Assembly (NCBI RefSeq): GCF_008365385.1
Contig: NZ_QOVF01000001.1
Coordinates: 1,054,001 to 1,118,000, forward strand
From: Halopseudomonas laoshanensis
Lineage (GTDB): Bacteria > Pseudomonadota > Gammaproteobacteria > Pseudomonadales > Pseudomonadaceae
Direction: 5' to 3'
DNA: 64,000 nucleotides
The notes below the pieces were generated by a model. It was not told where the DNA came from. It worked only from the letters and a program-made list of their open reading frames with translations, and searched no databases. Every line of letters begins with the position of its first letter. The stretch's first letter is position 1. Both the position numbers and the translations under genes were made by a program. Shown here in pieces: positions 1,471 through 61,311 of this stretch.

Positions 1471-4434
1471 ATGAATAATATCTACCAGTCGATCTGGAAC
1501 GCCAAAAGCGGTACGTATATCGCCGCATCCGAACACGCTAAAGTCGGTGGCAAGAGAAGTGCCGGCGCCGTTAAAGGCGGCATAAGCCGAGCGGTAGGTT
1601 TTGCCCTGCAATCGCTTGCCGCTGCAGTCATGTTGGCAACTGGATTCAGTGCCCACGCCCTGCCAGTTGATGGTTCGGTAGCGGCAGGCGCTGCCAGTAT
1701 TGCTAACGGTGAAGGTAGCATGACCGTTAACCAAGCATCGCAGAATGTCAGTATCAACTGGCAGAGCTTCAATATCGGCCAGGGCGAATCGGTCACGTTT
1801 GTGCAACCCAACAGCAGCGCAGTGGCGCTCAATCGGGTGCTGGGTTCTGACCCATCGAGCATTCTGGGTAGCCTGGATGCTAACGGGCAGGTGTTCCTGA
1901 TCAACCCCAATGGCGTGCTCTTCGGCCAAAGCGCTTCGGTCAATGTCGGCGGTCTGGTGGCCTCGACGCTGAATCTTAGCGACAGCGATTTCATGGCAGG
2001 CGACTACAACTTCGCCGGTGCCAGTGATGGCAGTGTCGTCAACCAGGGTGCGATCAATGCCGATGGCGGCTATGTCGCGCTGCTTGGCGCGAATGTCAGC
2101 AACCAGGGCGTTATCCAGGCCAATCTGGGCACCGTTGCGCTGGCGGCCGGTGACGCAATAACCCTCGATGTCGCAGGCGACGGCCTGTTAAATGTCGCCG
2201 TTGACCAAGGTTCAGTAGCGGCATTGGTGCAGAACGGCGGGATGATCCAAGCCGATGGCGGCAAGGTATTGATGACGGCCAGGTCCGCGGGAAACTTGTT
2301 CCAGTCTGCGGTGAACAACACCGGCGTGGTCCGTGCCCAGAGCATCCACAACCGCAATGGCACCATTACCCTGCTGGGCGATATGCACAGTGGCACGGTA
2401 GATCTAGGCGGTGAGCTGGATGTGTCGGGCGACGGGGCAGGGCAGACGGGTGGTAGCGTTGTTGCCACAGCTAACCAGGTCGGCTTGGTTAAGGCCAACA
2501 TCGATGCCTCCGGTGACGCGGGCGGCGGTACTGTGTTGCTGGGCGGCGGCTATCAGGGCAAGGACGCGGCAGTACAGAACGCCAAAGCAACCCATATGAG
2601 TGCTGACTCCAGCATCACCGCTGACGCGCTGAGTTCCGGCGACGGCGGCACCGTTGTGCTGTGGGGTAATGAATCGACCCGCGCCTATGGCAGCATTACA
2701 GCCCGCGGCGGCGCCGAGTCCGGCAACGGCGGCATGATCGAGACCTCCGGCGGTTGGCTGGACGTTTCCGGGATACGGGTGAATACCAGTGCACCCAACG
2801 GCCAGTTCGGCATGTGGCTGCTTGACCCCGCAGATATCACCATCTCCAGCGCGCCAGCATCAGGTGCCACGTCCACAGGCAATGTATTCGCCCCCGATTC
2901 CGGAATGAATGTGGCGAACATCAATGTAAACGACCTGGTCATGGCCTTGGGTGGTAGCAATATCACCGTAACGACCGAGAATACGGGCGCCAGTGGTAGC
3001 GGTAACGGCGATATAACGGTTATGAACGCCGTTACCTGGGTGGCGCCGACGACACTGACGCTTAACGCAGACCGGGATGTCAACGTGAACCTGGGCGCCG
3101 ATATCACCGGCACCCTGGGTAGCCTTGAAGCAAATGCCGGTCGGGATATCAACGTTAATGCGGATATCACCACCACCACAGGTGGTCTTAGCTTTATCGC
3201 CGTCAACGACGTTACCGTTAACGCGGCCACGACCATTACCACAGGTAACCTCACCGCGGTCGCTGGGCAGAACGTCAATCTCAACGCAGCAATGACGGTC
3301 ACTACGGGCGATGTCATCCTGCGTGCGGATAACGACGGTACCGGGCCGGGAGCCATCCTAGGTGGCACGGTGCTCATTACCTGCGGCAGCAACTGCATCA
3401 CTATAGGTACGGGCGATCTGAGCATTCGCTTCAACCCGGTGAATTACGCGCAGACCAATGCTGAAATTCTTGCCTATGGACTGAACCTGACTGGCGGCGG
3501 CGCACTTGATGCCAAGGCCTGGGTGTTCGGCTTGGGCGACAACAAGGTTTACGACGGTTTGCGCGATGCCACTGTCAGCGGCCTTGAGACGGATATCACC
3601 AACACACCGCCTCCTGTCGCTCTGGGCGCCGTTACCAACGCGTTATTCGATACCAAGGATGTGGGTGTTGAAAAACTGATCACCTATGAAAGCACCTTTG
3701 CTGATCCGGTCTTTGATCTTTTTTCTCCTTTCGGTACGGCGGTGGGTACCTATGTCACGCGCGCCGATATAACTCCGGCACCGTTGACCATCACCGCCAA
3801 TAACGCCACCAAGGTATTTGGTGAAACGCTGGTGTTGGGAACATCGGCCTTCACCTCGGTAGGCCTGGTAGCGGGCGAGACCATTGGCGGTGTGACCCTG
3901 ACCAGCCCTGGAGCAGTGGGTACGGCTACAGTGGATGGTAATCCCTACGCCATTACTCCGAGTGATGCGGTTCCCGGCACCTTTGATCAGAACAATTACG
4001 CCATTAATTATGTCGATGGCACCTTGTTGATCAGCCAGGTGGTACCAGATCCCGTGATTCCAGTAGATCCAGTAGATCCGGTGATTCCAGTAGATCCGGT
4101 GGACCCAGTGGATCCCCCAGGCTCAACTCCTCCGGGCTCCACGCCCCCGGGCTCGACGCCAGACCCGACTGAACCAGACTTGCCAACCGAGACCCTGCCG
4201 GGTGTCACTAACCCGAATACCAGCAGCCCCTATGACGACAGTACCGGCCGACAATTCGTCGCTGGATCAACCCATCGTGCAGCTGGTGTGAACTACGCAA
4301 CTGAAGGTACCGGTATCAACCTGGAGGTAGCGCAACTTACCCAGCTGTCAGCTGACCCCGTCGCTATCGTAGAAGAGGAACCCAGAGCGATTTATGTGCC
4401 ACCGGTATATGCGCCGAGGCAGGATCGTAACTGA
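1471..4434 (+). CDS. TpsA exoprotein, filamentous-haemagglutinin-like with YDG/MBG repeats
   Basis: Secreted beta-helical protein exported by the upstream TpsB; probably an adhesin or surface protein. The N-terminus is an extended signal peptide region (YQSIWNAKSGTYIAASEHAK) followed by a hydrophobic stretch ending in Ala-His-Ala. The TPS secretion domain follows at about residues 65-300, with the hallmark NPNGVLFG near residue 147. The middle is an irregular repeat region rich in Gly, Asn, Thr and Val with recurring INVNADI/VNLNA-type turns. Near residues 690-850 there are a YDG-like unit (KVYDGLRDATVSGL) and an MBG-like unit (LTITANNATKVFGETL). A proline-rich linker of DPV and PPGST repeats (about 860-905) precedes a short C-terminal tail. 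At 987 residues it is small for the family. An AGGA ribosome site precedes the ATG. Confidence 0.9.
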   Translation: MNNIYQSIWNAKSGTYIAASEHAKVGGKRSAGAVKGGISRAVGFALQSLAAAVMLATGFSAHALPVDGSVAAGAASIANGEGSMTVNQASQNVSINWQSFNIGQGESVTFVQPNSSAVALNRVLGSDPSSILGSLDANGQVFLINPNGVLFGQSASVNVGGLVASTLNLSDSDFMAGDYNFAGASDGSVVNQGAINADGGYVALLGANVSNQGVIQANLGTVALAAGDAITLDVAGDGLLNVAVDQGSVAALVQNGGMIQADGGKVLMTARSAGNLFQSAVNNTGVVRAQSIHNRNGTITLLGDMHSGTVDLGGELDVSGDGAGQTGGSVVATANQVGLVKANIDASGDAGGGTVLLGGGYQGKDAAVQNAKATHMSADSSITADALSSGDGGTVVLWGNESTRAYGSITARGGAESGNGGMIETSGGWLDVSGIRVNTSAPNGQFGMWLLDPADITISSAPASGATSTGNVFAPDSGMNVANINVNDLVMALGGSNITVTTENTGASGSGNGDITVMNAVTWVAPTTLTLNADRDVNVNLGADITGTLGSLEANAGRDINVNADITTTTGGLSFIAVNDVTVNAATTITTGNLTAVAGQNVNLNAAMTVTTGDVILRADNDGTGPGAILGGTVLITCGSNCITIGTGDLSIRFNPVNYAQTNAEILAYGLNLTGGGALDAKAWVFGLGDNKVYDGLRDATVSGLETDITNTPPPVALGAVTNALFDTKDVGVEKLITYESTFADPVFDLFSPFGTAVGTYVTRADITPAPLTITANNATKVFGETLVLGTSAFTSVGLVAGETIGGVTLTSPGAVGTATVDGNPYAITPSDAVPGTFDQNNYAINYVDGTLLISQVVPDPVIPVDPVDPVIPVDPVDPVDPPGSTPPGSTPPGSTPDPTEPDLPTETLPGVTNPNTSSPYDDSTGRQFVAGSTHRAAGVNYATEGTGINLEVAQLTQLSADPVAIVEEEPRAIYVPPVYAPRQDRN

Positions 4435-4443
4435 GCCAAACCC

Positions 4444-5223
4444 ATGAGAACGGAGGAGATCAGCAACAACACTGCCAGGATCGTGGGCAATGCCCGTGCG
4501 AAGGGGCTTTACACGGGTATCCTGCTGCTTGCCGGAATGACTACTAATCACCTGGCGTGGGCGGATGGCGCCTGGGAAACGGGGGCGCTGGGTAAACCCG
4601 TTGTCTGGCAGCAGGTTGTTCCAACAGCAATAGCCCCAGCACCGGTTCCTATTCGCAAGGTTGCAAATTTCAAGGGTGAAAATGTCTCCGAGGCTGCACG
4701 GCAGGTCGTCAACTGGGTCGTAGACTCAGGCGACAACGCCGGCCTGCCATTTCTGATTGTCGACAAGGTGCAAGCAAGAGTGTTGATGTTTGATGCCCAA
4801 GGGCAGCTAACGGGTTCAGCGTCGGCTCTATTGGGTATGGCGGTGGGGGATGACACCGTGCCCGGCATTGGTCAGCGCAGACTGTCCAGTATTCTGCCGA
4901 ACGAACGCACCACGCCTGCAGGTCGGTTTGAAGCATCGGTAGGCCGCAATCTAGCGGGCAAGGAGATTCTCTGGGTGGACTACGACGCAGCCATCTCACT
5001 GCACCGGGTCGTCACTAGTAATGCCAAGGAGCGCCGAGCCGAACGCTTGGCCTCACCGCTCATTGAAGACAACCGGATTTCCTATGGTTGTATTAACGTG
5101 CCAGTGGCGTTTTTCGATGAGGTCGTGCTTCCCGCATTTGCCGGCACCAATGGCATTGTGTACACGTTGCCGGAAACTCGGGAAAATCAGTCGGTGTTCA
5201 GTTCTTATTACGAACTTGAATAA
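4444..5223 (+). CDS. L,D-transpeptidase (YkuD)-like exported protein
   Basis: Likely envelope protein with a YkuD-type fold; L,D-transpeptidases cross-link peptidoglycan or attach proteins to it. A membrane or signal segment lies at about residues 22-40 (GILLLAGMTTNHLAWA). The C-terminal half has FLIVDKVQARVLMFDAQG, TPAGRF, His187 in SLHRV, and the catalytic-type motif SYGCIN with Cys216. The classic motif has His before Gly-Cys, but here it is Tyr, and the His-Cys distance is longer than usual, so activity is not certain. The gene begins 9 bases after the tpsA stop, so it is probably co-transcribed and may serve the secreted protein or its anchoring. The link to TpsA is inference. Confidence 0.75.
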   Translation: MRTEEISNNTARIVGNARAKGLYTGILLLAGMTTNHLAWADGAWETGALGKPVVWQQVVPTAIAPAPVPIRKVANFKGENVSEAARQVVNWVVDSGDNAGLPFLIVDKVQARVLMFDAQGQLTGSASALLGMAVGDDTVPGIGQRRLSSILPNERTTPAGRFEASVGRNLAGKEILWVDYDAAISLHRVVTSNAKERRAERLASPLIEDNRISYGCINVPVAFFDEVVLPAFAGTNGIVYTLPETRENQSVFSSYYELE

Positions 5224-51261: not shown

Positions 51262-51933
51262 ATGAATATAAAGATGGTTTATATGCTGACAATATTGTTG
51301 CCTGGGATGGTTGCTGGCCAAATGGTAAGCGCTGATACCTCGCGTGAGCACGCCGACCACGGTGCACACTCGGAGCAAATCAATCCAAACCCCTTTGCCG
51401 CGGCAAATGCCGATATGATGCTGGCGATGCATAACCTGGTGCCCACGGGTGACGTCGATTACGACTTTATGCGCGGCATGATTCCGCATCATCAGGGCGC
51501 CATCGATATGGCCAAGGCGATGCTGGAGCAGGGCGGCGATGAGCAGATGCTTGCACTCGCACGGCAAATTCTCGACGCTCAGGAAGCCGAGATCACGCAG
51601 ATGCAGACCTGGTTGAAAGAGCATGGAGAACCTCGCCCCGGCGAGCAGGCACAGGACATTATTGCCGCCTGGCAGCGCATTGATCAGCGGATGATGGCGG
51701 AGATGCAGCTGACCACATCCGGCAGTACCGCAGGCGATTTCGCCCAGGGCATGATCCCGCATCATGTGGCCGCAGTGGATATGGCCTATGTGCTTCTCGC
51801 TCACAGCAACCACCCCGGTTTGCGGTCCATGGCCAAGGCGGTGATTCGCGAACAGGAGCGGGAAATCAGAGAGCTCAAAGCCTGGGAGGACAGGGCCGGC
51901 CACCCGCCGCTAGACGCGCATTCAGAGCACTAA
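51262..51933 (+). CDS. DUF305 exported protein
   Basis: A 223-residue periplasmic protein with two DUF305 (ferritin-like, four-helix-type) units. Each carries the signature: DYDFMRGMIPHHQGAIDMAK in the first and DFAQGMIPHHVAAVDMAYVL in the second, with the HH pair of the family. Helices rich in Glu and Met follow each motif. The signal peptide is short (MVYMLTILLPGMVAGQMVSA). DUF305 genes are often next to copper-handling genes; the exported His/Cys gene just upstream fits this. The start has GGAG ten bases upstream. Metal link is inference. Confidence 0.85.
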   Translation: MNIKMVYMLTILLPGMVAGQMVSADTSREHADHGAHSEQINPNPFAAANADMMLAMHNLVPTGDVDYDFMRGMIPHHQGAIDMAKAMLEQGGDEQMLALARQILDAQEAEITQMQTWLKEHGEPRPGEQAQDIIAAWQRIDQRMMAEMQLTTSGSTAGDFAQGMIPHHVAAVDMAYVLLAHSNHPGLRSMAKAVIREQEREIRELKAWEDRAGHPPLDAHSEH

Positions 51934-52032
51934 CTCACATCACCAGGACAACGGCCCCGGTACTGCTGGACAAGGGTATTGCCGGGGCTTAGTTTTGACC
52001 TGCCGCTTCCCTCAACCTGGAGAATCAGAAAC

Positions 52033-52476
52033 ATGGATCCTTTTATGCGCGCGACCATCGATGAGGCCCGTGCGGGCTTGGCCGAGGGCGGAATACCGAT
52101 CGGCTCGGTGCTGGTTCACAACGGCAAGATCATCGGCCATGGGCATAACCGCCGGGTTCAGCATGGCAGTGCCATTTTGCATGGCGAAATGGATGCGCTG
52201 GAGAACGCCGGGCGGTTGCCGGCCTCGGTTTATAGCGAATCGGTGCTCTATACCACCCTGTCGCCCTGCGCGATGTGCAGTGGCGCTATTCTGCTGTATG
52301 GCATTCCCAAGGTGGTTATTGGCGAGAACCAAACTTTTATGGGTGAAGAACAGCTGCTGCGTGAGCGCGGCGTGGTTGTCGAGGTAAAGCAGGACGCCGA
52401 ATGCATAGCACTGATGCGCGAGTTTATTCAGGCGAGCCCGGAACTCTGGAATGAGGACATAGGCGAGGAGGGATAG
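52033..52476 (+). CDS. cytosine/nucleoside deaminase of the yeast Fcy1 type
   Basis: Zinc-dependent deaminase of the CDA superfamily, 147 residues. The zinc site is the HGEMDALEN motif (catalytic Glu) and PCAMCSGAIL (two Cys ligands). The surrounding sequence is unusually close in pattern to the fungal cytosine deaminase Fcy1: GGIPIGSVLVHNGKIIGHGH, LYTTLSPCAMCSG, LLYGIPKVVIGENQTF and a C-terminus ending in ELWNEDIGEE. This suggests cytosine to uracil deamination, a pyrimidine salvage step, rather than tRNA or dCMP deamination. ATG 52033 is preceded by GGAGA. It lies 69 bases before the TRAP operon; a link is not proven. Confidence 0.82.
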   Translation: MDPFMRATIDEARAGLAEGGIPIGSVLVHNGKIIGHGHNRRVQHGSAILHGEMDALENAGRLPASVYSESVLYTTLSPCAMCSGAILLYGIPKVVIGENQTFMGEEQLLRERGVVVEVKQDAECIALMREFIQASPELWNEDIGEEG

Positions 52477-52544
52477 GTATTTATTAGCGTTAACTGAAAG
52501 CTCGTCTATATTTTTGTAATACGTTCTTTACGACGAGTTGCTTC

Positions 52545-53054
52545 ATGCCCAGGACGATTCGGATGTTCGTGCAAGCAGTGGATGCTATGAACCGGTTTAT
52601 TGGCCGGTGCGCGATGTATCTTATTTTCGTCATGATGGCCGTGTTGTTGTACTCCTCGATCAGCAAAACCTTCTTCAATCCCTCGATCTGGACCCTGGAA
52701 GTCGCGCAATTTTTGATGGTCGCCTACTTCCTGCTGGGCGGCGCCTATTCAATGCAGCTGGATGGCCATGTGCGCATGGACCTGCTGTACAGCAAATGGT
52801 CACCCCGGACCAAAGGCGCGGTGGATGCGGTCACCGTGCTGCTGCTGATCTTCTACCTGTTCTGGCTGCTGTATGGCGGCATTTCTTCCACCCAGTATGC
52901 GTTGCAATACAACGAAACCAGCTATTCAGCCTGGTCGCCACGCATGGCGCCGATCAAGATCATCATGTGCATTGGTGTCGCGATGATGATCCTGCAGGCG
53001 CTGGCCACGCTGTGTCGCGATATTGCCGAGGCGCGGGGGGCTCCGCTGGAATGA
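52545..53054 (+). CDS. TRAP transporter small permease (DctQ)
   Basis: Small membrane subunit of a tripartite ATP-independent periplasmic transporter, 169 residues with four membrane helices (for example AMYLIFVMMAVLLYSSIS, FLMVAYFLLGGAYSMQL, VTVLLLIFYLFWLLYGG and IIMCIGVAMMILQALATL). The conserved loop LDGHVRMDLLYSKW between helices 2 and 3 is typical of DctQ. First gene of the Q-M-P transporter, coupled to dctM by ATGA overlap at 53051. An AT-rich stretch just upstream is a plausible promoter. Confidence 0.88.
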   Translation: MPRTIRMFVQAVDAMNRFIGRCAMYLIFVMMAVLLYSSISKTFFNPSIWTLEVAQFLMVAYFLLGGAYSMQLDGHVRMDLLYSKWSPRTKGAVDAVTVLLLIFYLFWLLYGGISSTQYALQYNETSYSAWSPRMAPIKIIMCIGVAMMILQALATLCRDIAEARGAPLE

Positions 53055-54376
53055 GCTACAACGTCATAGCGCTGTTGATGTTCTCCAGCATGATGCTGCT
53101 GTTGTTGACCGGTAAGCGGGTATTCGGCGCTATCGGTTTTGTCGCAGTGGCCGCGGCCTTGTTGCTGTGGGGCGATGGTGGCTCGGAAATCGCCTTCAGT
53201 GCGGCTATGAAGTTGATGAAATGGTACCCGCTGCTGACGCTACCGTTGTTCGTTTATATGGGCTACATGCTCTCCGAATCAGGGTTGGCCGAGGACCTGT
53301 ATCGCATGTTTCATGTGTGGATGGGTCCGGTTCACGGCGGCCTGGCGATCGGCACCATCGGTTTGATGGTGGCTATCTCGGCGATGAACGGCTTGAGCGT
53401 GGCAGGCATGGCGATTGGCGCCAGTATTGCGTTACCCGAGCTCCTGCGCCGCGGCTACGACAAGATCATGGTCACCGGGGTGATCCAGGCCGGCAGCTCG
53501 CTGGGGATTCTGATTCCACCCAGTGTGGTGCTGGTGCTCTACGGCATGATTGCCCGCCAGCCGGTCGGCCAGTTGTGGTTGGCGGGGGTGTTTCCCGGGC
53601 TGATGATGGCCGGCCTGTTTGTACTGTATATCGCCATTCGCTGCCGCCTGCAGCCGCAGCTGGGGCCGGCGCTGCCGGAAGAAGAGCGGCGGCAGATTAC
53701 CCGCGCAGACAAGTTCAAGTTGCTGCAGGCGGGCATCATTCCGGTGTTCATCTTTTTCTCCATGACCGGGCTGTTTCTGCTCGGCTACACAAGTCTGGTC
53801 GAGAGCTCTGCTGTGGGTGCTGCCGCGGCCACTTTGGCGGCTTTGCTGAAAGGTCGGCTGACGCGCAAGGTTATGGAAGAGACACTGCGCAAAACGCTGG
53901 CGATCAGTTGCATGTTTATGTGGATCATCCTGGCGGCGCTGTGTTTTGGCGCCGTGTTCGACGGTCTGGGCGCGGTGCGCGCAATCGAGTCGCTGTTTCT
54001 CGACAATCTGGGTTTAGGCCCCTGGCAGGTGCTGATATTGATGCAGCTGTCCTTCATCGTCATGGGCATGTTCCTGGACGATACGGCGATGTTGGTGATT
54101 GTCGCGCCGCTGTATATCCCGTTGGTGGGCGCGCTGGGTTTCGACCTGATCTGGTACGGCGTGCTTTATACCATCACCTGTCAGATCGCCTATATGACAC
54201 CACCTTTTGGTTACAACCTGTTCCTGATGCGGGCCATGGCGCCGCCAGAGGTGACGCTGCGTGACATATACGTATCGGTTACGCCCTTCGTGCTGATCAT
54301 GGTCCTGGCCTTGATCCTGGTGATGATATTCCCGCAGATTGCGCTGTGGTTGCCGGAGCTGCACTACGCCCAGTAG
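53051..54376 (+). CDS. TRAP transporter large permease (DctM)
   Basis: Ion-coupled permease subunit, 441 residues, about twelve membrane helices. Motifs: MAIGASIALPELLRRGYDKI, the reentrant-loop stretch IQAGSSLGILIPPSVVLVLY and QLSFIVMGMFLDDTAMLVIV. It takes up the substrate delivered by the DctP receptor. I used ATG 53051 (ATGAGC), overlapping the dctQ stop, and not the longer frame that begins within dctQ. The substrate must be judged from the downstream genes. Confidence 0.9.
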   Translation: MSYNVIALLMFSSMMLLLLTGKRVFGAIGFVAVAAALLLWGDGGSEIAFSAAMKLMKWYPLLTLPLFVYMGYMLSESGLAEDLYRMFHVWMGPVHGGLAIGTIGLMVAISAMNGLSVAGMAIGASIALPELLRRGYDKIMVTGVIQAGSSLGILIPPSVVLVLYGMIARQPVGQLWLAGVFPGLMMAGLFVLYIAIRCRLQPQLGPALPEEERRQITRADKFKLLQAGIIPVFIFFSMTGLFLLGYTSLVESSAVGAAAATLAALLKGRLTRKVMEETLRKTLAISCMFMWIILAALCFGAVFDGLGAVRAIESLFLDNLGLGPWQVLILMQLSFIVMGMFLDDTAMLVIVAPLYIPLVGALGFDLIWYGVLYTITCQIAYMTPPFGYNLFLMRAMAPPEVTLRDIYVSVTPFVLIMVLALILVMIFPQIALWLPELHYAQ

Positions 54377-54505
54377 CCAGGTTTATCGAACTAAGAGCTG
54401 GCTCCGCTTGAGTCGGCTTCAAGGAACACTGCTCCGACCATGCTGGCCGTTGCAGGGTAATGCGGTTGTTGGAATACAAAATCGACATTAAAGGGAGTGA
54501 CCAGC

Positions 54506-55555
54506 ATGAGTTCAAGACGCAACTTTCTAAAGAACGCGGCTATCGGAGCGGTAGGCGCCTCAACGCTGGGCAGTGCACATATCTACGCCCAGGAAAGCAA
54601 AAAGATCACCTGGCGGCTGCAGACTTATGCCGGTCCGGCGTTGGCCGAGCACGTGATCAAACCGTCAATTGACGCCTTCAACAAGGCCGCCAATGGCGAA
54701 ATGGAAATCGAACTGTATTTTGCCGATCAGCTAGTGCCCACCGGCGAGCTGTTCCGAGCGATGCAGCGTGGCACTATCGATGCGGTGCAGAGCGATGATG
54801 ATTCGATTGCCGCGCCGGTGGATGTGTCGGTATTTGGCGGCTATTTTCCTTTCGCTTCGCGTTACAGCCTGGATATTCCGGTGCTGTTCGAGAAGTATGG
54901 CCTGAAGGAAATCTGGGAAGAGGCTTATGGTGAAGTGGAAGGTGTGACCTGGTTGGGCGCCGGGGCCTGGGACCCGTGCAACTTCGCCACGGTGAAGCCA
55001 ATCAACTCGCTGGAGGATCTCAAGGGCAAGCGCATCTTTACCTTCCCGACGGCAGGCAAATTTCTCTCGCGTTTCGGCGTGGTGCCGGTGACTTTGCCAT
55101 GGGAAGACGTGGAAGTGGCGATGCAAACCGGTGAGCTCGACGGGATCGCCTGGTCCGGCATTACCGAGGACTACACCGTAGGCTGGGCGAATGTGACCAA
55201 CTACTTCCTGACCAATAATATCTCCGGCGCCTGGTGTGGCTCCTACTTCGCCAACGAAGAAAAATGGAACGAGGTGCCGGAGCATCTGAAAACCCTGTTC
55301 CGCCTGTGCATGGACAGCTCGAACTATTACCGGCAGCACTGGTATTGGGGCGGCGAAGCTGATCTGCGGGTGAACGGCAGCAAGTTGCAGCTGACCACAA
55401 TACCCGATGCCGAATGGGCTACAGTTGAACAGGAGGCCATGAAGTTCTGGGACGAAATCGCCAAGACCAGCCCCCGCTGCGCCAAGGTGGTAGAGATTTT
55501 CAAGCAGTACAACGCGCTGATGGCCAAAGCGGGCACGCCTTACCGCTGTGCTTGA
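54506..55555 (+). CDS. TRAP transporter substrate-binding protein (DctP), Tat-exported
   Basis: Periplasmic receptor, 349 residues. The N-terminus MSSRRNFLKNAAIGAVGAST is a twin-arginine signal, so export is probably by Tat. The domain reads ADQLVPTGELFRAMQRGTID early, VKPINSLEDLKGKRIFTFPT in the middle with the conserved Arg that usually holds a carboxylate, and AMQTGELDGIAW later. Tat-exported DctP proteins often bind organic acids, but some bind other ligands. GGGAGT precedes the ATG. It is 129 bases downstream of dctM and begins the second part of the operon. Confidence 0.88.
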   Translation: MSSRRNFLKNAAIGAVGASTLGSAHIYAQESKKITWRLQTYAGPALAEHVIKPSIDAFNKAANGEMEIELYFADQLVPTGELFRAMQRGTIDAVQSDDDSIAAPVDVSVFGGYFPFASRYSLDIPVLFEKYGLKEIWEEAYGEVEGVTWLGAGAWDPCNFATVKPINSLEDLKGKRIFTFPTAGKFLSRFGVVPVTLPWEDVEVAMQTGELDGIAWSGITEDYTVGWANVTNYFLTNNISGAWCGSYFANEEKWNEVPEHLKTLFRLCMDSSNYYRQHWYWGGEADLRVNGSKLQLTTIPDAEWATVEQEAMKFWDEIAKTSPRCAKVVEIFKQYNALMAKAGTPYRCA

Positions 55556-55573
55556 GTGGTTTGCTTTGGGATG

Positions 55574-55599
55574 TGGGAGCGTCCACCGGCGCTCCCACA
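55574..55599 (+). repeat. REP-like hairpin between dctP and the GS-like gene
   Basis: GTGGGAGCG (55574-55582) and CGCTCCCAC (55591-55599) form a nine-pair stem with an eight-base loop. Such hairpins are typical Pseudomonas intergenic palindromes. It may stop decay of the transporter mRNA and so raise transporter over enzyme levels; no T-run. Confidence 0.55.
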
Positions 55600-55641
55600 A
55601 GCTGGACACGATACCGGATAAAAGCTGCGCTGGAGATTCAA

Positions 55642-57015
55642 ATGCTCAAACCGCGGGAAGTAAAAACCGTCGAGGATGCCAGACGCATTGTCGAGGAGCG
55701 TGGCATCAGCCACGTCAAGGTCGGGCTGTTCGATAATGATGGTGTGATGCGCGGCAAATATATGAGCCGCGAGAAGTTCTTTTCTTCGCTTGATGATGGC
55801 TTTGCTTTTTGCGACGTGGTGCTGGGCTGGGACGTCAAGGATCAGCTGTACGACAACGCCAGTTACACCGGCTGGCACACCGGTTACCCGGACGCGCCGG
55901 TACGCATTCTTCCCGCCAGTTGCCGGGATATTCCCTTTGAAGACGGCATGCTGCTGTTTCTTGCTGAATTTGACAAGCAAGCCGAAGCGGTCTGCCCGCG
56001 CGGTACCTTGCGCCGCGTGATCGAGCGCTGCCAGGAGATGGGTTTCGAACCCTATGCGGCGCTGGAATACGAGTTTTTCATGTTCAACGAAACACCTGAA
56101 TCGGCCCGGGCCAAGGGTTTTCGCGACCTGATTCCCTATACCCCGGACTGGTTCGGTTATTCGATGATCCGCAACTCGGTACACGCTGAGCTGTATCACC
56201 AGATTCTCGACATGTCCGAGGCCATGGACTTTCCGATCGAAGGCCTGCACACCGAAACCGGCCCCGGCGTATTGGAAGCAGCAATAGCGGTGGATCGAGC
56301 CGAAGCGGCTGCAGACAAGGCGGCGCTGTTCAAGACGTTCATGAAAGTCCTGGCCCAGCGTCAAGGCATGATGGCGACTTTCATGGCCAAATGGTCTGGC
56401 AAGTATCCGGGCCAGAGCGGCCATATTCACGTTTCATTGAGAGATAAAAAGACAGATAAATCAGCGTTCTATGACGCAAATGAAAAGCACTGCATGAGCA
56501 AGATACAGCGGCATTTTCTCGCCGGCCAGCAGCGCTTGATGCCGGAAATGCTGTGCATGGTGGCGCCGACGTTGAATAGCTACCGGCGGATGATCCCGGG
56601 TTTCTGGGCGCCGACGGATGCGACCTGGGGCGTGGAAAATCGCACCGCCGCGTTGCGCGTGATCCCCGGTAGTGACAAATCTCAGCGCCAGGAGTATCGC
56701 TTGGGCGCTGCGGACGGTAACCCGTATCTGGCTCTCTCGGTGGCGTTGGCGTCGGGCCTGTACGGGATCATGCATGAATGGGAACCCGGTGAGCCGGTGG
56801 AGGGCAACGCCTATGACATCAAACATCCACCTGAACTGGCCCTGCCCAGAACGCTGTGGGACGCGGCGCAGCGGTTGCGTGCATCGGATGCGGCGCGCGA
56901 GCTGTTTGGCGATGCCTTTGTCGAACATTTCGCTGCCAGCCGCGAGTGGGAAGAGCGCGAATATCGCCGGCATGTAAGCGATTGGGAGCTGGATCGGTAT
57001 TTTGAAATTATCTGA
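55642..57015 (+). CDS. glutamine-synthetase-like gamma-glutamyl-amine ligase
   Basis: GS-fold ligase, 457 residues. These enzymes (PuuA, IpuC, AtdA1 and others) activate glutamate with ATP and join it to an amine. The beta-grasp N-terminus (VKVGLFDNDGVMRGKYMS) is present, then LEYEFFMFNETPESARAKG, GQSGHIHVSLRDK, the ATP/glutamate stretch LNSYRRMIPGFWAPTDATWG and ENRTAALRVIPGSDKSQRQE. No adenylylation-type tyrosine motif is seen. Its place between a TRAP receptor and two dehydrogenases and near a GATase speaks for an amine catabolic route and not nitrogen assimilation. ATG 55642 chosen; no strong ribosome site (GGAGA at distance eight). Confidence 0.9.
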   Translation: MLKPREVKTVEDARRIVEERGISHVKVGLFDNDGVMRGKYMSREKFFSSLDDGFAFCDVVLGWDVKDQLYDNASYTGWHTGYPDAPVRILPASCRDIPFEDGMLLFLAEFDKQAEAVCPRGTLRRVIERCQEMGFEPYAALEYEFFMFNETPESARAKGFRDLIPYTPDWFGYSMIRNSVHAELYHQILDMSEAMDFPIEGLHTETGPGVLEAAIAVDRAEAAADKAALFKTFMKVLAQRQGMMATFMAKWSGKYPGQSGHIHVSLRDKKTDKSAFYDANEKHCMSKIQRHFLAGQQRLMPEMLCMVAPTLNSYRRMIPGFWAPTDATWGVENRTAALRVIPGSDKSQRQEYRLGAADGNPYLALSVALASGLYGIMHEWEPGEPVEGNAYDIKHPPELALPRTLWDAAQRLRASDAARELFGDAFVEHFAASREWEEREYRRHVSDWELDRYFEII

Positions 57016-57040
57016 TTTACAGCCTGTCCGGGAGCATCAA

Positions 57041-58429
57041 ATGAGCAAAACCCTGCAAACCATCTCTCCAATCGACGGCTCGGTCTACGTAGAGCGACCT
57101 CTGGCGACCGAAGAGCAGATCAATGAAGCCCTGGATCTTGCCATTAAGGCGCAGCGCCGCTGGAAAACCACGCCATTGCGTGAGCGACTGGAGGTAGTCC
57201 GCCAGGCCATAGCCGCTTTCAGCACCAGAGAATCGGTGCTTGCAGAGGAGCTGTGCTGGATGATGGGCCGGCCAATTCGGTATGCGGCGGGCGAGATCAA
57301 AGGCTATGTGGAGCGCGCCATCTATATGGCCGACATCGCCGAAACGGCCCTGGCGGATATCGAATTGCCAGAGAAGGCCGGGTTCAAACGCTTTATTCGC
57401 CGTGAGCCACTCGGCGTGTCGCTGATCATTGCGCCGTGGAATTTTCCTTACCTGACCGCCGTCAACGCGGTGGTGCCAGCGATTTTGGCGGGTAATGCGG
57501 TGCTGCTCAAGCATTCGGCACAAACGCCGCTGTGCGCCGAGCGGATGGTCGCGTCCTTTGCCGAAGCAGGCCTGCTTGAAGGGGTTTTTCAATACCTGCA
57601 TATGAGTCACGCGGACACGGAGGCACTGATATCACGGTCGGGCATTGCTCACGTGGCTTTCACCGGCTCAGTGGCCGGCGGTGAGATGGTGGAAAAGGCG
57701 GCGGCGGGGCGCTTTATCGCCAGCGGTCTGGAACTGGGCGGCAAAGACCCGGCCTATGTGCGCGCTGACGCGGATCTGGCCCACGCGGTGGAAACACTGG
57801 TAGATGGCGCCTTTTTCAATTCAGGGCAGTCCTGTTGTGGTATCGAGCGCATCTACGTGCACGAGGATCTGCACGATGAGTTTGTCGAGCTGGTGGTCGC
57901 GTTAGTGCGCCAGTACAAGCTGGGCCGCTCGGACGATCCGGAAACCACCCTGGGGCCAGTGGTGCGCCCTGAAGCGGCGGCGTTCATTCGTGCGCAAATC
58001 GCCGAAGCGGTTGCCCAGGGCGCTGAAGCGCATATTGATGCCGACGACTTTCCGCTAAGCCGATCCGGTAGTGCCTACCTGGCCCCGCAGGTGCTGACTG
58101 GGGTCAATCATGGCATGCGGGTCATGACCGAGGAATCCTTTGGCCCGGTGGTGGGTATACAGAAGGTCAGCAGCGACGCAGAAGCGGTGGCCTTCATGAA
58201 CGATAGCGAATACGGCCTGACTGCCGCGATTTTCAGCCAGGACGTAGATGCGTCTCTGGCGATAGCGGACCGGCTGCAGACGGGTACGGTTTTCCTTAAT
58301 CGTTGCGACTATCTGGACCCAGCGCTGGCCTGGACCGGGGTGAAAAACTCTGGCCGGGGCTGTACCTTGTCCAGTGTCGGCTATGAATATGTCACCCGAC
58401 CAAAATCCTTTCACTTCAAGATTCTGTAG
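57041..58429 (+). CDS. aldehyde dehydrogenase of the TRAP/ligase operon
   Basis: NAD(P)-dependent aldehyde dehydrogenase, 462 residues. Cofactor and active site motifs: APWNFPYLTAVNAVVPAILA, HVAFTGSVAGGEMVEKAA, LELGGKDPAYVRADADLA with the base Glu, and NSGQSCCGIERIYV with the catalytic Cys. Shorter than the 490-residue classical type, and closest in style to succinate-semialdehyde or gamma-aminobutyraldehyde-type enzymes. GGGAG lies six bases before ATG 57041. In the operon it should oxidise an aldehyde made by the alcohol dehydrogenase next to it, probably still bearing a gamma-glutamyl group. Confidence 0.9.
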   Translation: MSKTLQTISPIDGSVYVERPLATEEQINEALDLAIKAQRRWKTTPLRERLEVVRQAIAAFSTRESVLAEELCWMMGRPIRYAAGEIKGYVERAIYMADIAETALADIELPEKAGFKRFIRREPLGVSLIIAPWNFPYLTAVNAVVPAILAGNAVLLKHSAQTPLCAERMVASFAEAGLLEGVFQYLHMSHADTEALISRSGIAHVAFTGSVAGGEMVEKAAAGRFIASGLELGGKDPAYVRADADLAHAVETLVDGAFFNSGQSCCGIERIYVHEDLHDEFVELVVALVRQYKLGRSDDPETTLGPVVRPEAAAFIRAQIAEAVAQGAEAHIDADDFPLSRSGSAYLAPQVLTGVNHGMRVMTEESFGPVVGIQKVSSDAEAVAFMNDSEYGLTAAIFSQDVDASLAIADRLQTGTVFLNRCDYLDPALAWTGVKNSGRGCTLSSVGYEYVTRPKSFHFKIL

Positions 58430-58438
58430 GAGCTGAGC

Positions 58439-59602
58439 ATGCAGGCGTATCGCATGAACTGGAATTATCCGACGTCGGTACGGGTTGGGGCAGGGCGAAT
58501 CGCTGAGCTGGCCGATGCCTGCAAGCAGTTGGGCATGCAGGCGCCGTTGTTGGTGACCGACCCCGGTCTGGCTGCATTGCCTATGATCGACAGCGCACTG
58601 AAACAATGCCGCGATGCCGGTTTGAACGCCGATGTGTTTTCCTCTATCAAAGGCAACCCGACCGGGCAGAACGTGATGGACGGCGTTGTCGTGTACCGCG
58701 TGGGTCATCACGATGGTGTTATCGCCTTTGGTGGTGGCTCGGCTTTGGACGCGGCCAAGGCGATAGCCTTGATGGCCGGACAGGATCGACCGCTGTGGGA
58801 TTTCGAAGATATTGGCGATAACCATCTGCGCGTCAATGTTGCGGGAATGGCGCCGGTGGTGGCTGTCCCGACTACAGCGGGTACGGGCTCTGAAGTGGGT
58901 CGTGCTTCGGTGATTACCGATGACGAAGCGCATATCAAACGCATCATCTTTCATGCACGCATGTTGCCGGCGCTGGTGATCCTTGATCCGGAACTGACTG
59001 TGGGTCTGCCGCCGCGTATTACTGCGGCGACCGGTATGGACGCCTTGTCGCATAATCTCGAAGCTTACTGCTCGCCGGTATTTCACCCAATGGCCGAAGG
59101 CATCGCGCTGGAGGGCATGCGCCTGGTCAAGGAGTATCTACCCAGAGCCACCGCCCAGGGCGACGACCTGGAGGCGCGGCTGAAAATGCTCGTGGCATCG
59201 AGCATGGGTGCGACCGCCTTCCAGCGAGGACTGGGTGGCATGCATGCGCTCGCGCATCCGCTAGGCGCGCTCTACGACGCGCATCACGGCACCTTGAATG
59301 CGATTCTGATGCCCTACGTGTTACAGGCCAATCGCAGCAGCATAGAACCACAGATGGAGCGTCTTGGACGCTACCTGGATCTGCCGCGACATGATTTTAC
59401 CGGGGTGCTGGACTGGGTACTGGAGCTGCGCAGCGAGCTGGACATTGCGCATAATCTGGCCGAGATTGGTATCGATGACTTGCAGGTCGAGCGAGTGGGT
59501 CAGATGGCGGTAGAAGATGCCACCTCGGGCACCAACCCGATTCAGTTTGATGCCGGCCAGTACAGTGCTATTTTTACCCGAGCGTTGCACGGGCAACTCT
59601 AG
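58439..59602 (+). CDS. iron-containing (group III) alcohol dehydrogenase
   Basis: NAD(P)-dependent Fe-type alcohol dehydrogenase, 387 residues. NAD-binding loop GVIAFGGGSALDAAKAIALM and GTGSEVGRASVITDD; metal site HNLEAYCSPVFHPMAEG with the preceding Asp of GMDALSH, and GGMHALAHPLGALYDAHHG with the three histidines. The family oxidises small alcohols and diols or reduces the aldehydes. AGGAGC lies six bases before the ATG, and it starts nine bases after the aldehyde dehydrogenase gene. With the ligase before it, a gamma-glutamyl amino alcohol is a plausible substrate (inference). Confidence 0.92.
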   Translation: MQAYRMNWNYPTSVRVGAGRIAELADACKQLGMQAPLLVTDPGLAALPMIDSALKQCRDAGLNADVFSSIKGNPTGQNVMDGVVVYRVGHHDGVIAFGGGSALDAAKAIALMAGQDRPLWDFEDIGDNHLRVNVAGMAPVVAVPTTAGTGSEVGRASVITDDEAHIKRIIFHARMLPALVILDPELTVGLPPRITAATGMDALSHNLEAYCSPVFHPMAEGIALEGMRLVKEYLPRATAQGDDLEARLKMLVASSMGATAFQRGLGGMHALAHPLGALYDAHHGTLNAILMPYVLQANRSSIEPQMERLGRYLDLPRHDFTGVLDWVLELRSELDIAHNLAEIGIDDLQVERVGQMAVEDATSGTNPIQFDAGQYSAIFTRALHGQL

Positions 59603-59630
59603 ACTCACTGTTTGAATGAAAGGGCGGGTT

Positions 59631-60344
59631 ATGAAAATCGGGCTGCTGCAATGTGATGATGTAATGGAAAGCCTGCAGGTCGCGCATGGCAATTACCCTG
59701 AGATGTTCAACGAACTGCTGTTGGCGCGTCACCCCGACGCTCAGATTCGTGTTTATCGCTGCATGGACGGCGAGTTACCGCAGGACCTTAACGAATGCGA
59801 TGCGTATATCACCAGCGGCAGTAAATTCGGCGTCAATGATGGTTTGCCGTGGATTGATGCGTTGCAGGAGTGTATTGCGCGCATGTGGGAGCAAGGCACA
59901 CCGCTGGTGGGCGTCTGTTTCGGCCATCAACTGATGGCCAAGGCATTGGGCGGCGAAGTGATCAAATCGCCCAAGGGCTGGGGCGTGGGTATGTCGTTCA
60001 ACCAGGTGCTGGTGCGCAAAAGCTGGATGAAACCCTGGCAGGACAAGCTCGACCTGGTCGTTAGCCATCAGGATCAGGTCAGCCTGCTACCGCCGCAAGC
60101 CGAGATTCTCGCCAGTAGTGAGTTCTGCCCCTATTACCTGGTGCAGTACGGCCAGCATTTTATGAGCGTGCAAGGGCATCCGGAGTTCTGCAAATCCTAT
60201 TCCCGGGATTTGATGGACGCGCGTCGCGGTGTGATTGCCCATGCCCGCTTGCGTGAGGGGCAGGCCTCGTTGTCGGCGGAAGTAGACGCGCCGGTGATGA
60301 GCAGCTGGATTATCAACTTTATGCAGGAAGCGCTCGCGGGTTAA
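59631..60344 (+). CDS. class I glutamine amidotransferase-like gamma-glutamyl hydrolase
   Basis: GATase1-fold hydrolase, 237 residues. The nucleophile is in VGVCFGHQLMAKALGG (Cys of GVCFGH), with the His and Glu of the triad in SVQGHPEF. Such stand-alone GATase1 proteins (as in AtdA2 or PuuD-like roles) can free glutamate from gamma-glutamyl amides. The ATG at 59631 follows AGGGCGGG by three bases; a slightly longer frame lacks that. It closes the operon. Whether it acts on the product of the ligase before it is inferred from gene order. Confidence 0.87.
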   Translation: MKIGLLQCDDVMESLQVAHGNYPEMFNELLLARHPDAQIRVYRCMDGELPQDLNECDAYITSGSKFGVNDGLPWIDALQECIARMWEQGTPLVGVCFGHQLMAKALGGEVIKSPKGWGVGMSFNQVLVRKSWMKPWQDKLDLVVSHQDQVSLLPPQAEILASSEFCPYYLVQYGQHFMSVQGHPEFCKSYSRDLMDARRGVIAHARLREGQASLSAEVDAPVMSSWIINFMQEALAG

Positions 60345-60353
60345 ACTGCGGGC

Positions 60354-60767
60354 ATGATCAAGCTATCCAACAATGTCGAGCTGGGTGACTGGGAGGTGGA
60401 GATATCCGCCATCCGCTCCCAGGGTGCGGGCGGGCAGAACGTCAACAAGGTCTCCAGCGCCATCCATCTCAGGTTCGATATCAATACCTCAAGCCTGCCG
60501 CCGTTCTATAAGGAGCGGCTGTTGGCGCTGTCTGATCAGCGCATCAGCAAGGACGGCGTGATCATCATCAAGGCGCAGTCCTACCGCAACCAGGAACAGA
60601 ACCGCGAAGATGCCATCCGGCGCCTGCAGGAATTGATCAACGGCGCCGTAGTAGTACAAAAACGCCGCCGCCCAACCAAACCCACCAAAGGCTCACAAAC
60701 CCGGCGCATGGACAGCAAGACCAAACGAGGTCAGGCCAAGTCTTTGCGGGGTAGGGTGGATATCTGA
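60354..60767 (+). CDS. arfB: ArfB (YaeJ) ribosome-rescue peptidyl-tRNA hydrolase
   Basis: Codon-independent release factor that frees stalled ribosomes. Class I release factor motif RSQGAGGQNVNKV (GGQ) near residues 22-34, followed by SSAIHLRFDIN. The basic C-terminal tail (RPTKPTKGSQTRRMDSKTKR and the following GQAKSLRG) enters the empty mRNA channel. Length 137 residues, full. It begins nine bases after the GATase gene and may be read from the same transcript or its own promoter. Confidence 0.94.
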   Translation: MIKLSNNVELGDWEVEISAIRSQGAGGQNVNKVSSAIHLRFDINTSSLPPFYKERLLALSDQRISKDGVIIIKAQSYRNQEQNREDAIRRLQELINGAVVVQKRRRPTKPTKGSQTRRMDSKTKRGQAKSLRGRVDI

Positions 60768-61311
60768 GCTACCTTTGTTGCCTGCCAATCAGCTCGAATG
60801 GATTCCCGCTTTCGCGGGAATGACGGGTGAGGTTGGGCATCCAGGTGGTCCTGGAATCGCCCTTAGGCGCGTAGTATCGATAAGCCCCAATTATTGATTG
60901 GCCGATGCACCACGCCTACCCACCGTCATCCTCGCGAACGCGGGGATCCATTTGGCATTCTCCTTCTGCTAGTCAGTGTGTGTGCGCAAATCCGCTTGGA
61001 TTCCCGCCTGCGCGGGAATGACGGCGTGGGTTTGGGATGTCGAAGTTAGGCTGGGAGGCGGTGTACTCCCACCCGGAAAGGGGGCGTGGGTTCAGGAGTG
61101 GGGAGCGTGCGGAGAGCGCGTAAAGTTGACGCCACCCCACCGTCATCCCCGCGAAGGCGGGGATCCAAGCGGTGGTCTGCTTCGCCTGGGTGGTGAGTGT
61201 GTACTGCAAATCCGCTTGGATTCCCGCCTTCGCGGGAGTGACGGGTTGGCTGGGGCTATCGAGGCGATCGTGGAATAGGGCTTAGGCGCGATCAAAGCCG
61301 AAGCTTTGAAA
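60768..61311. repeat. REP cluster, five elements
   Basis: About 540 bases without a gene hold five copies of a roughly 28-base REP: forward at 60799-60827, 60996-61024 and 61216-61246, reverse at 60921-60950 and 61138-61167. The core (GGATTCCCGC, loop, GCGGGAATGACGG) is a hairpin and translates on one strand as WIPAFAGMT. The forward copies at 60996 and 61216 also share the preceding GCAAATCCGCTT, so the unit is larger than the core and has been duplicated. Alternating orientation fits a BIME-type array, typical between Pseudomonas genes. No other coding frame is convincing. Confidence 0.85.

Follow-up and report, generated by a model that had tools for sequence, protein, structure and literature searches.

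A TRAP transporter and gamma-glutamyl ligase gene set in Halopseudomonas laoshanensis, most likely a version of the known ethanolamine route with different first and last enzymes

Organization of the locus

We analyzed a 64,000-nucleotide stretch of DNA from Halopseudomonas laoshanensis (the window), in which seven genes at positions 52545-60344 very probably encode the uptake of ethanolamine, a product of membrane-lipid breakdown, and its degradation by a gamma-glutamyl route. The genes comprise a tripartite ATP-independent periplasmic (TRAP) transporter, a ligase resembling glutamine synthetase (GS), two dehydrogenases and a class I glutamine amidotransferase (GATase), arranged as follows.

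52545..53054, + strand: DctQ, small TRAP permease subunit (EtoV-like); Pfam PF04290, 83 bits
53051..54376, + strand: DctM, large TRAP permease subunit (EtoW-like), overlapping the DctQ stop by 4 bases; Pfam PF06808, 231 bits
54506..55555, + strand: DctP, TRAP solute-binding protein of the EtoX/Csal_0678 type with a Tat-type signal; PDB 4uab/4xf5, E 4.3e-166
55642..57015, + strand: GS-like gamma-glutamyl-amine ligase, clade A; Pfam PF00120, 318 bits, with tree and residue evidence
57041..58429, + strand: aldehyde dehydrogenase, proposed producer of gamma-glutamylglycine; Pfam PF00171, 411 bits
58439..59602, + strand: Fe-type alcohol dehydrogenase (FeADH), proposed gamma-glutamylethanolamide dehydrogenase; Pfam PF00465 and PF25137, with tree evidence
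59631..60344, + strand: class I GATase, proposed gamma-glutamylglycine hydrolase; Pfam PF00117, 55 bits, with Cys96, His183 and Glu185

Gaps between consecutive genes measure -4, 129, 86, 25, 9 and 28 bases, and every protein scores above its Pfam family cut-off, which bears out the first-pass annotation's description of seven genes in this order, on one strand and with short gaps. A scan of positions 52000-61300 returned no sigma-70-like site (mean 5.3 in shuffled sequences), and the promoter and terminator scan gave no usable result; because no such site was found, we infer co-transcription from spacing and conservation only. The NCBIfam scan of DctQ gave no match, and with the models shown (25 of 45 in the case of the aldehyde dehydrogenase) the ligase, the two dehydrogenases and the GATase all fell short of every curated cut-off, so that this library supplies no substrate name for them.

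The transporter has a binding protein of the ethanolamine type

Against the PDB, DctP matches the single sequence shared by 4uab and 4xf5 far better (E 4.3e-166) than the next-best PDB sequence (1.2e-14). According to a passage of PMC12410723, 4UAB is Csal_0678 of Chromohalobacter salexigens with ethanolamine, which is held by the platform glutamate Glu220, and a passage of PMC4646407 states that Csal_0678 has no equivalent of Arg-147, the carboxylate-binding residue of most TRAP proteins. In our alignment, Phe178 of the window protein faces an Arg of 2hzk that would occupy the Arg-147 position; 88 of the 91 rows have Phe here and the other 3 have Tyr. Glu221 is kept in all 91 rows and likely corresponds to Glu220 of Csal_0678, given the alignment and an assumed offset in numbering. 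The protein is thus a TRAP binding protein of the Csal_0678/EtoX type, and a carboxylate-binding DctP is ruled out by the 4uab match, the literature on Csal_0678 and the residues at 178 and 221. Vetting et al. 2015 is reportedly the source on the C. salexigens system.

The gene set recurs in two versions

Our survey covered 90 DctP loci, made up of the best 80 of at least 592 confirmed relatives in a species-genome collection and 10 stretches from the same family. It was ranked by similarity to Pseudomonadaceae DctP proteins and hence leans towards gammaproteobacteria, and three of its loci are duplicate records (L039 equals L063, L040 equals L060, and L045 equals L068). Ligases with at least 50% identity to the window ligase were called type A and those with at least 50% identity to the ligase of locus L046 type B, which gave 37 loci of type A, 25 of type B and 28 with neither (35, 25 and 27 after removal of the duplicates). 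Both dehydrogenases accompany the ligase at 35 type-A and 22 type-B loci, and are found together at 5 loci with neither ligase. The GATase occurs at 19 of the 37 type-A loci and at no other surveyed locus (0 of 25 type B, 0 of 28 neither), and an N-formylglutamate amidohydrolase (FGase) at 17 of the 25 type-B loci, 3 of the 28 with neither and no type-A locus. Fisher tests for association with ligase type gave 8e-6 for the GATase and 1.5e-9 for the FGase, values that take no account of relatedness among the loci and include the three duplicates, and so describe association, not probability. A relative of the regulator RpiR was present at 6 of 37, 16 of 25 and 3 of 28 loci, respectively. Because 37 of the 90 loci share the ligase type, with both dehydrogenases at 35 of them and the GATase at 19, the gene set recurs more than by chance.

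Median identities were calculated between the window and either the 19 type-A loci outside Pseudomonadaceae or the 25 type-B loci, from full-length matches (depending on the gene, 16 to 19 of the 19 and 20 to 25 of the 25). They were 78.2 and 78.9 for DctP, 71.5 and 33.3 for the ligase, 63.9 and 54.4 for the aldehyde dehydrogenase, and 64.9 and 53.8 for FeADH. The ligase is better conserved than the dehydrogenases within type A and far less alike between the types; judged by these identities, ligase A is not merely a diverged ligase B.

Type B matches a layout already in print. According to PMC10132767, the operon of Phaeobacter sp. MED193 encodes an RpiR regulator, a gamma-glutamylglycine amidohydrolase, EtoVWX, an ethanolamine gamma-glutamylase, an aldehyde dehydrogenase and a gamma-glutamylethanolamide dehydrogenase; proteins that it encodes rise on phosphorylethanolamine, EtoX binds ethanolamine (7.9 uM), and earlier work on the route in C. 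salexigens and A. tumefaciens is cited. The families listed for the route are PF00120, PF00465, PF00171 and PF05013 (PMC9397018, Table 2). In Ruegeria and Marinovum, a type-B ligase (65 and 62% identical to that of L046) stands in the published order of regulator, N-formylglutamate amidohydrolase, three TRAP genes, ligase, aldehyde dehydrogenase and Fe-alcohol dehydrogenase. Both are Roseobacteraceae, presumably the family of Phaeobacter as well. Because these operons match the gene order printed for Phaeobacter, type B is, by gene order and sequence similarity, the published layout.

The window shares with the EtoVWX route of Phaeobacter, Chromohalobacter and Agrobacterium a TRAP system of the 4uab type followed in the same order by GS-like ligase, aldehyde dehydrogenase (PF00171) and Fe-alcohol dehydrogenase (PF00465). 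It differs in three respects: its ligase is of another clade (median 33% identity) than type B, the type carried by the two Roseobacteraceae relatives with the Phaeobacter gene order, its hydrolase is of PF00117 and encoded last, whereas the published one is of PF05013 and encoded first, and the window contains no RpiR relative.

Several contexts outside this pattern concern the same proteins. Proteins of the same DctP type are encoded next to genes for a hydantoinase B (L109), a DUF4202 protein (L064) or, by eye, other transporters (L087), with no ligase found at these loci. On a Rhodobacteraceae plasmid outside the survey (L131, 7143-9356), the gene for a ligase-A relative (54%) adjoins genes for an N-formylglutamate amidohydrolase and an aminotransferase, with no FeADH or TRAP matches; this neighborhood counts against a strict rule that ligase A occurs without FGase. 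Relatives of ligase A (54-59%) in Burkholderia, Rhizobium and Paracoccus likewise have no FeADH match, and in Legionella lytica the four enzyme genes stand in a row with no TRAP match in 15 kb.

Genes for other ethanolamine systems appear in the same surroundings. At two loci (L108, 11639-14030, and L123, 12339-14634), the same TRAP genes, with DctP 76 and 72% identical, are followed by EutB and EutC, both confirmed by Pfam; EutB was present in 2 of the 28 loci with neither ligase type. In Litchfieldella (L126, which has the TRAP genes), ligase A is separated from DctP by a gene for an ethanolamine permease (TIGR00908, 550 bits against a cut-off of 382), and in Photobacterium (L135) such a permease (TIGR00908, 553 bits) directly precedes the four enzyme genes (ligase A, aldehyde dehydrogenase, FeADH and GATase), in a 17-kb stretch that gave no TRAP match. 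These were the only 2 of the 104 loci searched that contained the permease. A profile search of the H. laoshanensis genome, with a positive control in E. coli, found no EutB, and the genome therefore does not qualify for the Eut pathway.

The ligase has an altered ammonium site

In a tree of 78 ligases (38 rows of clade A and 25 of clade B), for which the program warns of long branches meeting, clades A and B each occupy one side of a branch with support 100/100. E. coli PuuA, E. coli GlnA and five other ligases from the H. laoshanensis genome fall outside both; one of the genome's other ligases groups with GlnA and one lies in the PuuA branch. IpuC is placed beside B at 97/78 (not starred), on a long branch that leaves its position unsure. 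The structure 5dm3, which we take to be Csal_0679, is of type B (660 bits against a B ligase, 220 against the window ligase), as is 11zs. The ligase of the window is therefore of a clade other than the one seen in the published gene order.

Numbered as in the E. coli/Salmonella GS, Glu129, Glu131, Glu212, Glu220, His269, Arg321, Arg339, Arg344, Arg355, Glu357 and Arg359 are invariant in both clades, and the metal, ATP and glutamate residues are retained in the window ligase. The ammonium site is changed. Glu327 is replaced by Trp in 38 of 38 A rows and by Phe in 25 of 25 B rows; the Tyr179 position holds Phe (30), Met (6) or Tyr (2) in A and Glu (23), Ala (1) or Gln (1) in B; and Pro occupies the Asn264 position throughout the 38 A rows. 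The window protein is thus a PF00120 ligase with Glu327 changed to Trp and Tyr179 to Phe, the Asp at position 50 being kept. At the Glu327 position, passages of PMC6529630 give Phe for GlnA4 and Trp for PauA7.

These changes dispose of an ordinary glutamine synthetase with unrelated neighbors, the least credible of the alternatives: although the best curated NCBIfam model for the protein is GlnA, it reaches only 203.5 of the 429 bits of the cut-off, the genome has a separate gene that clusters with E. coli GlnA, and the gene set is conserved across loci.

The hydrolase

The best PDB match of the GATase is gamma-glutamyl peptidase 1 (E 1.1e-18), and its Cys96, His183 and Glu185 are kept in all 26 aligned rows, PuuD among them. 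It scores 55.2 bits with the Pfam GATase family and only 21.9 bits with C26 (cut-off 20.5), and its aligned positions agree with those of PuuD in only 21% of cases. A profile search of the whole genome, with a positive control in Caulobacter, found no PF05013 protein, so that PF00117 stands in the place of the published gamma-glutamylglycine amidohydrolase.

Since 18 of the 37 type-A loci have no GATase in the examined stretch, this enzyme cannot be the sole hydrolase used. Eight genomes without it each encode a nearly full-length relative with 34-37% identity (E about 1e-47), which three genomes with the GATase do not show; this relative may be the substitute hydrolase where the GATase is absent.

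Exchange of the ligase among genomes of the family

Across 99 genomes of the family, compared at E up to 1e-100, ligase A is found at 75% identity or more in 6, with a 46% relative in a seventh (G002), and ligase B in 12; none of the 99 has both at those levels. FeADH, at 72% identity or more, is present in 13 genomes, 6 of them with ligase A and not B and 7, all of one genus (g11), with B and not A. In four of these seven that were inspected, ligase B is encoded away from the genes of the TRAP transporter and the dehydrogenases, and their FeADH falls within the type-A part of the FeADH tree. Because the two ligases are mutually exclusive among the genomes with this FeADH, and the four inspected genomes with ligase B carry an FeADH of the type-A branch, one ligase seems able to take the place of the other.

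Taken with the survey, this makes it reasonably probable, if less so than the ethanolamine function itself, that there are two versions of the route, with the entry and exit enzymes swapped between them (A with GATase, B with FGase) and the importer and dehydrogenases kept. The relatives of Pseudomonas resinovorans, which keep type-A dehydrogenases with a type-B ligase encoded elsewhere, would then represent a natural replacement of the ligase.

Other arrangements were seen among the genomes. In G063 (L143), only fragments of DctQ (residues 1-44) and DctP (244-303), at 4322-4636, precede an intact ligase A, aldehyde dehydrogenase and FeADH. The H. laoshanensis genome itself encodes a second Fe-alcohol dehydrogenase, 67-68% identical (L142, 6301-7557), with no ligase or aldehyde-dehydrogenase matches in 19 kb, and in five more genomes of the genus this second enzyme is the only one present at E up to 1e-100.

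Proposed function and alternative explanations

The function of the seven genes is most likely that of the known gamma-glutamyl-ethanolamine route, carried out with different first and last enzymes. DctQMP would import ethanolamine, and the GS-like ligase would join it to glutamate at the expense of ATP, giving gamma-glutamylethanolamide. The Fe-alcohol dehydrogenase would then oxidize the hydroxyl group to an aldehyde and the aldehyde dehydrogenase would convert this to gamma-glutamylglycine, from which the GATase-type hydrolase would release glycine and glutamate, the latter being reused. We infer all of these catalytic steps from what is observed, namely the gene families, the residue changes, the kinship of DctP with an ethanolamine-binding protein and the conserved contexts; the assignment of the dehydrogenases to their steps follows the published pathway by analogy. 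The first-pass annotation had proposed the import of an amine or amino alcohol, its gamma-glutamylation, oxidation as alcohol and then aldehyde, and release of the acid by the GATase. This chemistry is probably right, agreeing with the families, the DctP kinship and the published route, and ethanolamine was among the substrates it named. Its view that no such pathway had been described is contradicted by the publications on Chromohalobacter, Agrobacterium and Phaeobacter (PMC10132767, PMC9397018). The type-A version was not found among the matches listed in searches of open-licence papers, which omit most subscription journals, and it may be in print elsewhere.

Several observations weigh against the ethanolamine assignment. 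The 28 DctP loci with neither ligase type nearby include some beside unrelated genes, and three of the seven genomes that combine the dehydrogenase with ligase B (G011, G062 and G094) have no DctP match. The GATase is missing from the 18 type-A loci noted above, and for two genomes of such loci the best relative reaches only 34-35%. The Asp50 position is still Asp in 38 of 38 A rows (4 of 25 in B), in a loop that aligns poorly. The window ligase is 38% identical to the annotated IpuC, which leaves other or additional amines possible, and the open-licence literature searched yielded no assay of clade A or of this GATase.

The alternative that survives best, though we consider it unlikely, is that the genes serve other small amino alcohols or a wider set of them, such as L-alaninol and 1-amino-2-propanol, with ethanolamine as one of several, and that the type-A ligase was recruited for these. 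The amine pockets do differ, A having Trp and mostly Phe where B has Phe and mostly Glu. In addition, 4xf5, with the same Csal_0678 sequence as 4uab, reportedly holds 2-amino-1-propanol as its ligand. The EutBC and ethanolamine-permease contexts argue for ethanolamine instead, as does the fact that ligases A and B replace one another alongside a single dehydrogenase lineage.

A Puu- or Ipu-like route for polyamines or isopropylamine is very improbable. Genes for a GS-like ligase, a GATase and an aldehyde dehydrogenase do also lie near ipuC on Paenarthrobacter pTC1, and IpuC is the only amine-specific ligase name among the 25 matches listed (two records). Its 38% identity to the window ligase is no more than its identity to a type-B ligase (38%), however, and the pTC1 stretch has P450 and ferredoxin genes and no annotated TRAP or Fe-alcohol dehydrogenase. 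E. coli PuuABCD follows the same logic of gamma-glutamylation, oxidation and hydrolysis, but with a ligase of another branch and the oxidase PuuB in place of an alcohol dehydrogenase. The seven genes include no PuuB-type oxidase, P450 or other oxygenase, and DctP is of the ethanolamine type. Membership in the Puu system is rejected on the ligase branch, the missing oxidase and the weak C26 score, and membership in the Ipu system on the 38% identity, the long branch of unsure place and the missing oxygenase. The likeness to PuuA/PuuD and IpuC drawn in the first-pass annotation is therefore loose.

For the ethanolamine route itself, another parallel comes from Streptomyces, whose ligase GlnA4 acts on ethanolamine (PMC6529630). 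Its cluster likewise combines gamma-glutamylation of ethanolamine with an aldehyde dehydrogenase and a gene labelled glutamine amidotransferase (Fig. 2 legend), but it has a short-chain rather than an Fe-type dehydrogenase, and the text assigns the hydrolase to the formylglutamate amidohydrolase family. GlnA4 resembles type B in its Phe at the Glu327 position, where the window ligase has Trp; we set it apart by its published description.

These results have practical consequences. The public names glutamine synthetase, GMP synthase and mannitol/chloroaromatic TRAP transporter are probably misleading for such genes, and a search by the published ligase type plus PF05013 would overlook type A, which is more common than type B in the surveyed gammaproteobacteria. 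With their different amine pockets for what is seemingly one substrate, the two ligase clades also make a small case that can be tested.

Additional features of the locus

One further element lies in the gap between DctP and the ligase.

55572..55599, + strand: inverted repeat forming a 12-pair hairpin, from repeat and folding analysis

Its 10-base ends are exact, the gap folds at -32.9 (z -2.1), and it resembles a Pseudomonas REP (repetitive extragenic palindromic) element. The same gap holds longer DNA at loci L052, L053, L056, L062 and L126.

Two flanking genes were considered as operon members and dropped, because matches above 35% occurred only in L037 among the 90 loci: one for a cytidine-deaminase-family protein (52033-52476, PF00383), 68 bases upstream of DctQ, and the ArfB gene at 60354-60767. 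Farther upstream, positions 51262-51933 encode a probably exported protein with two similar His/Met-rich halves, DUF305-like by eye.

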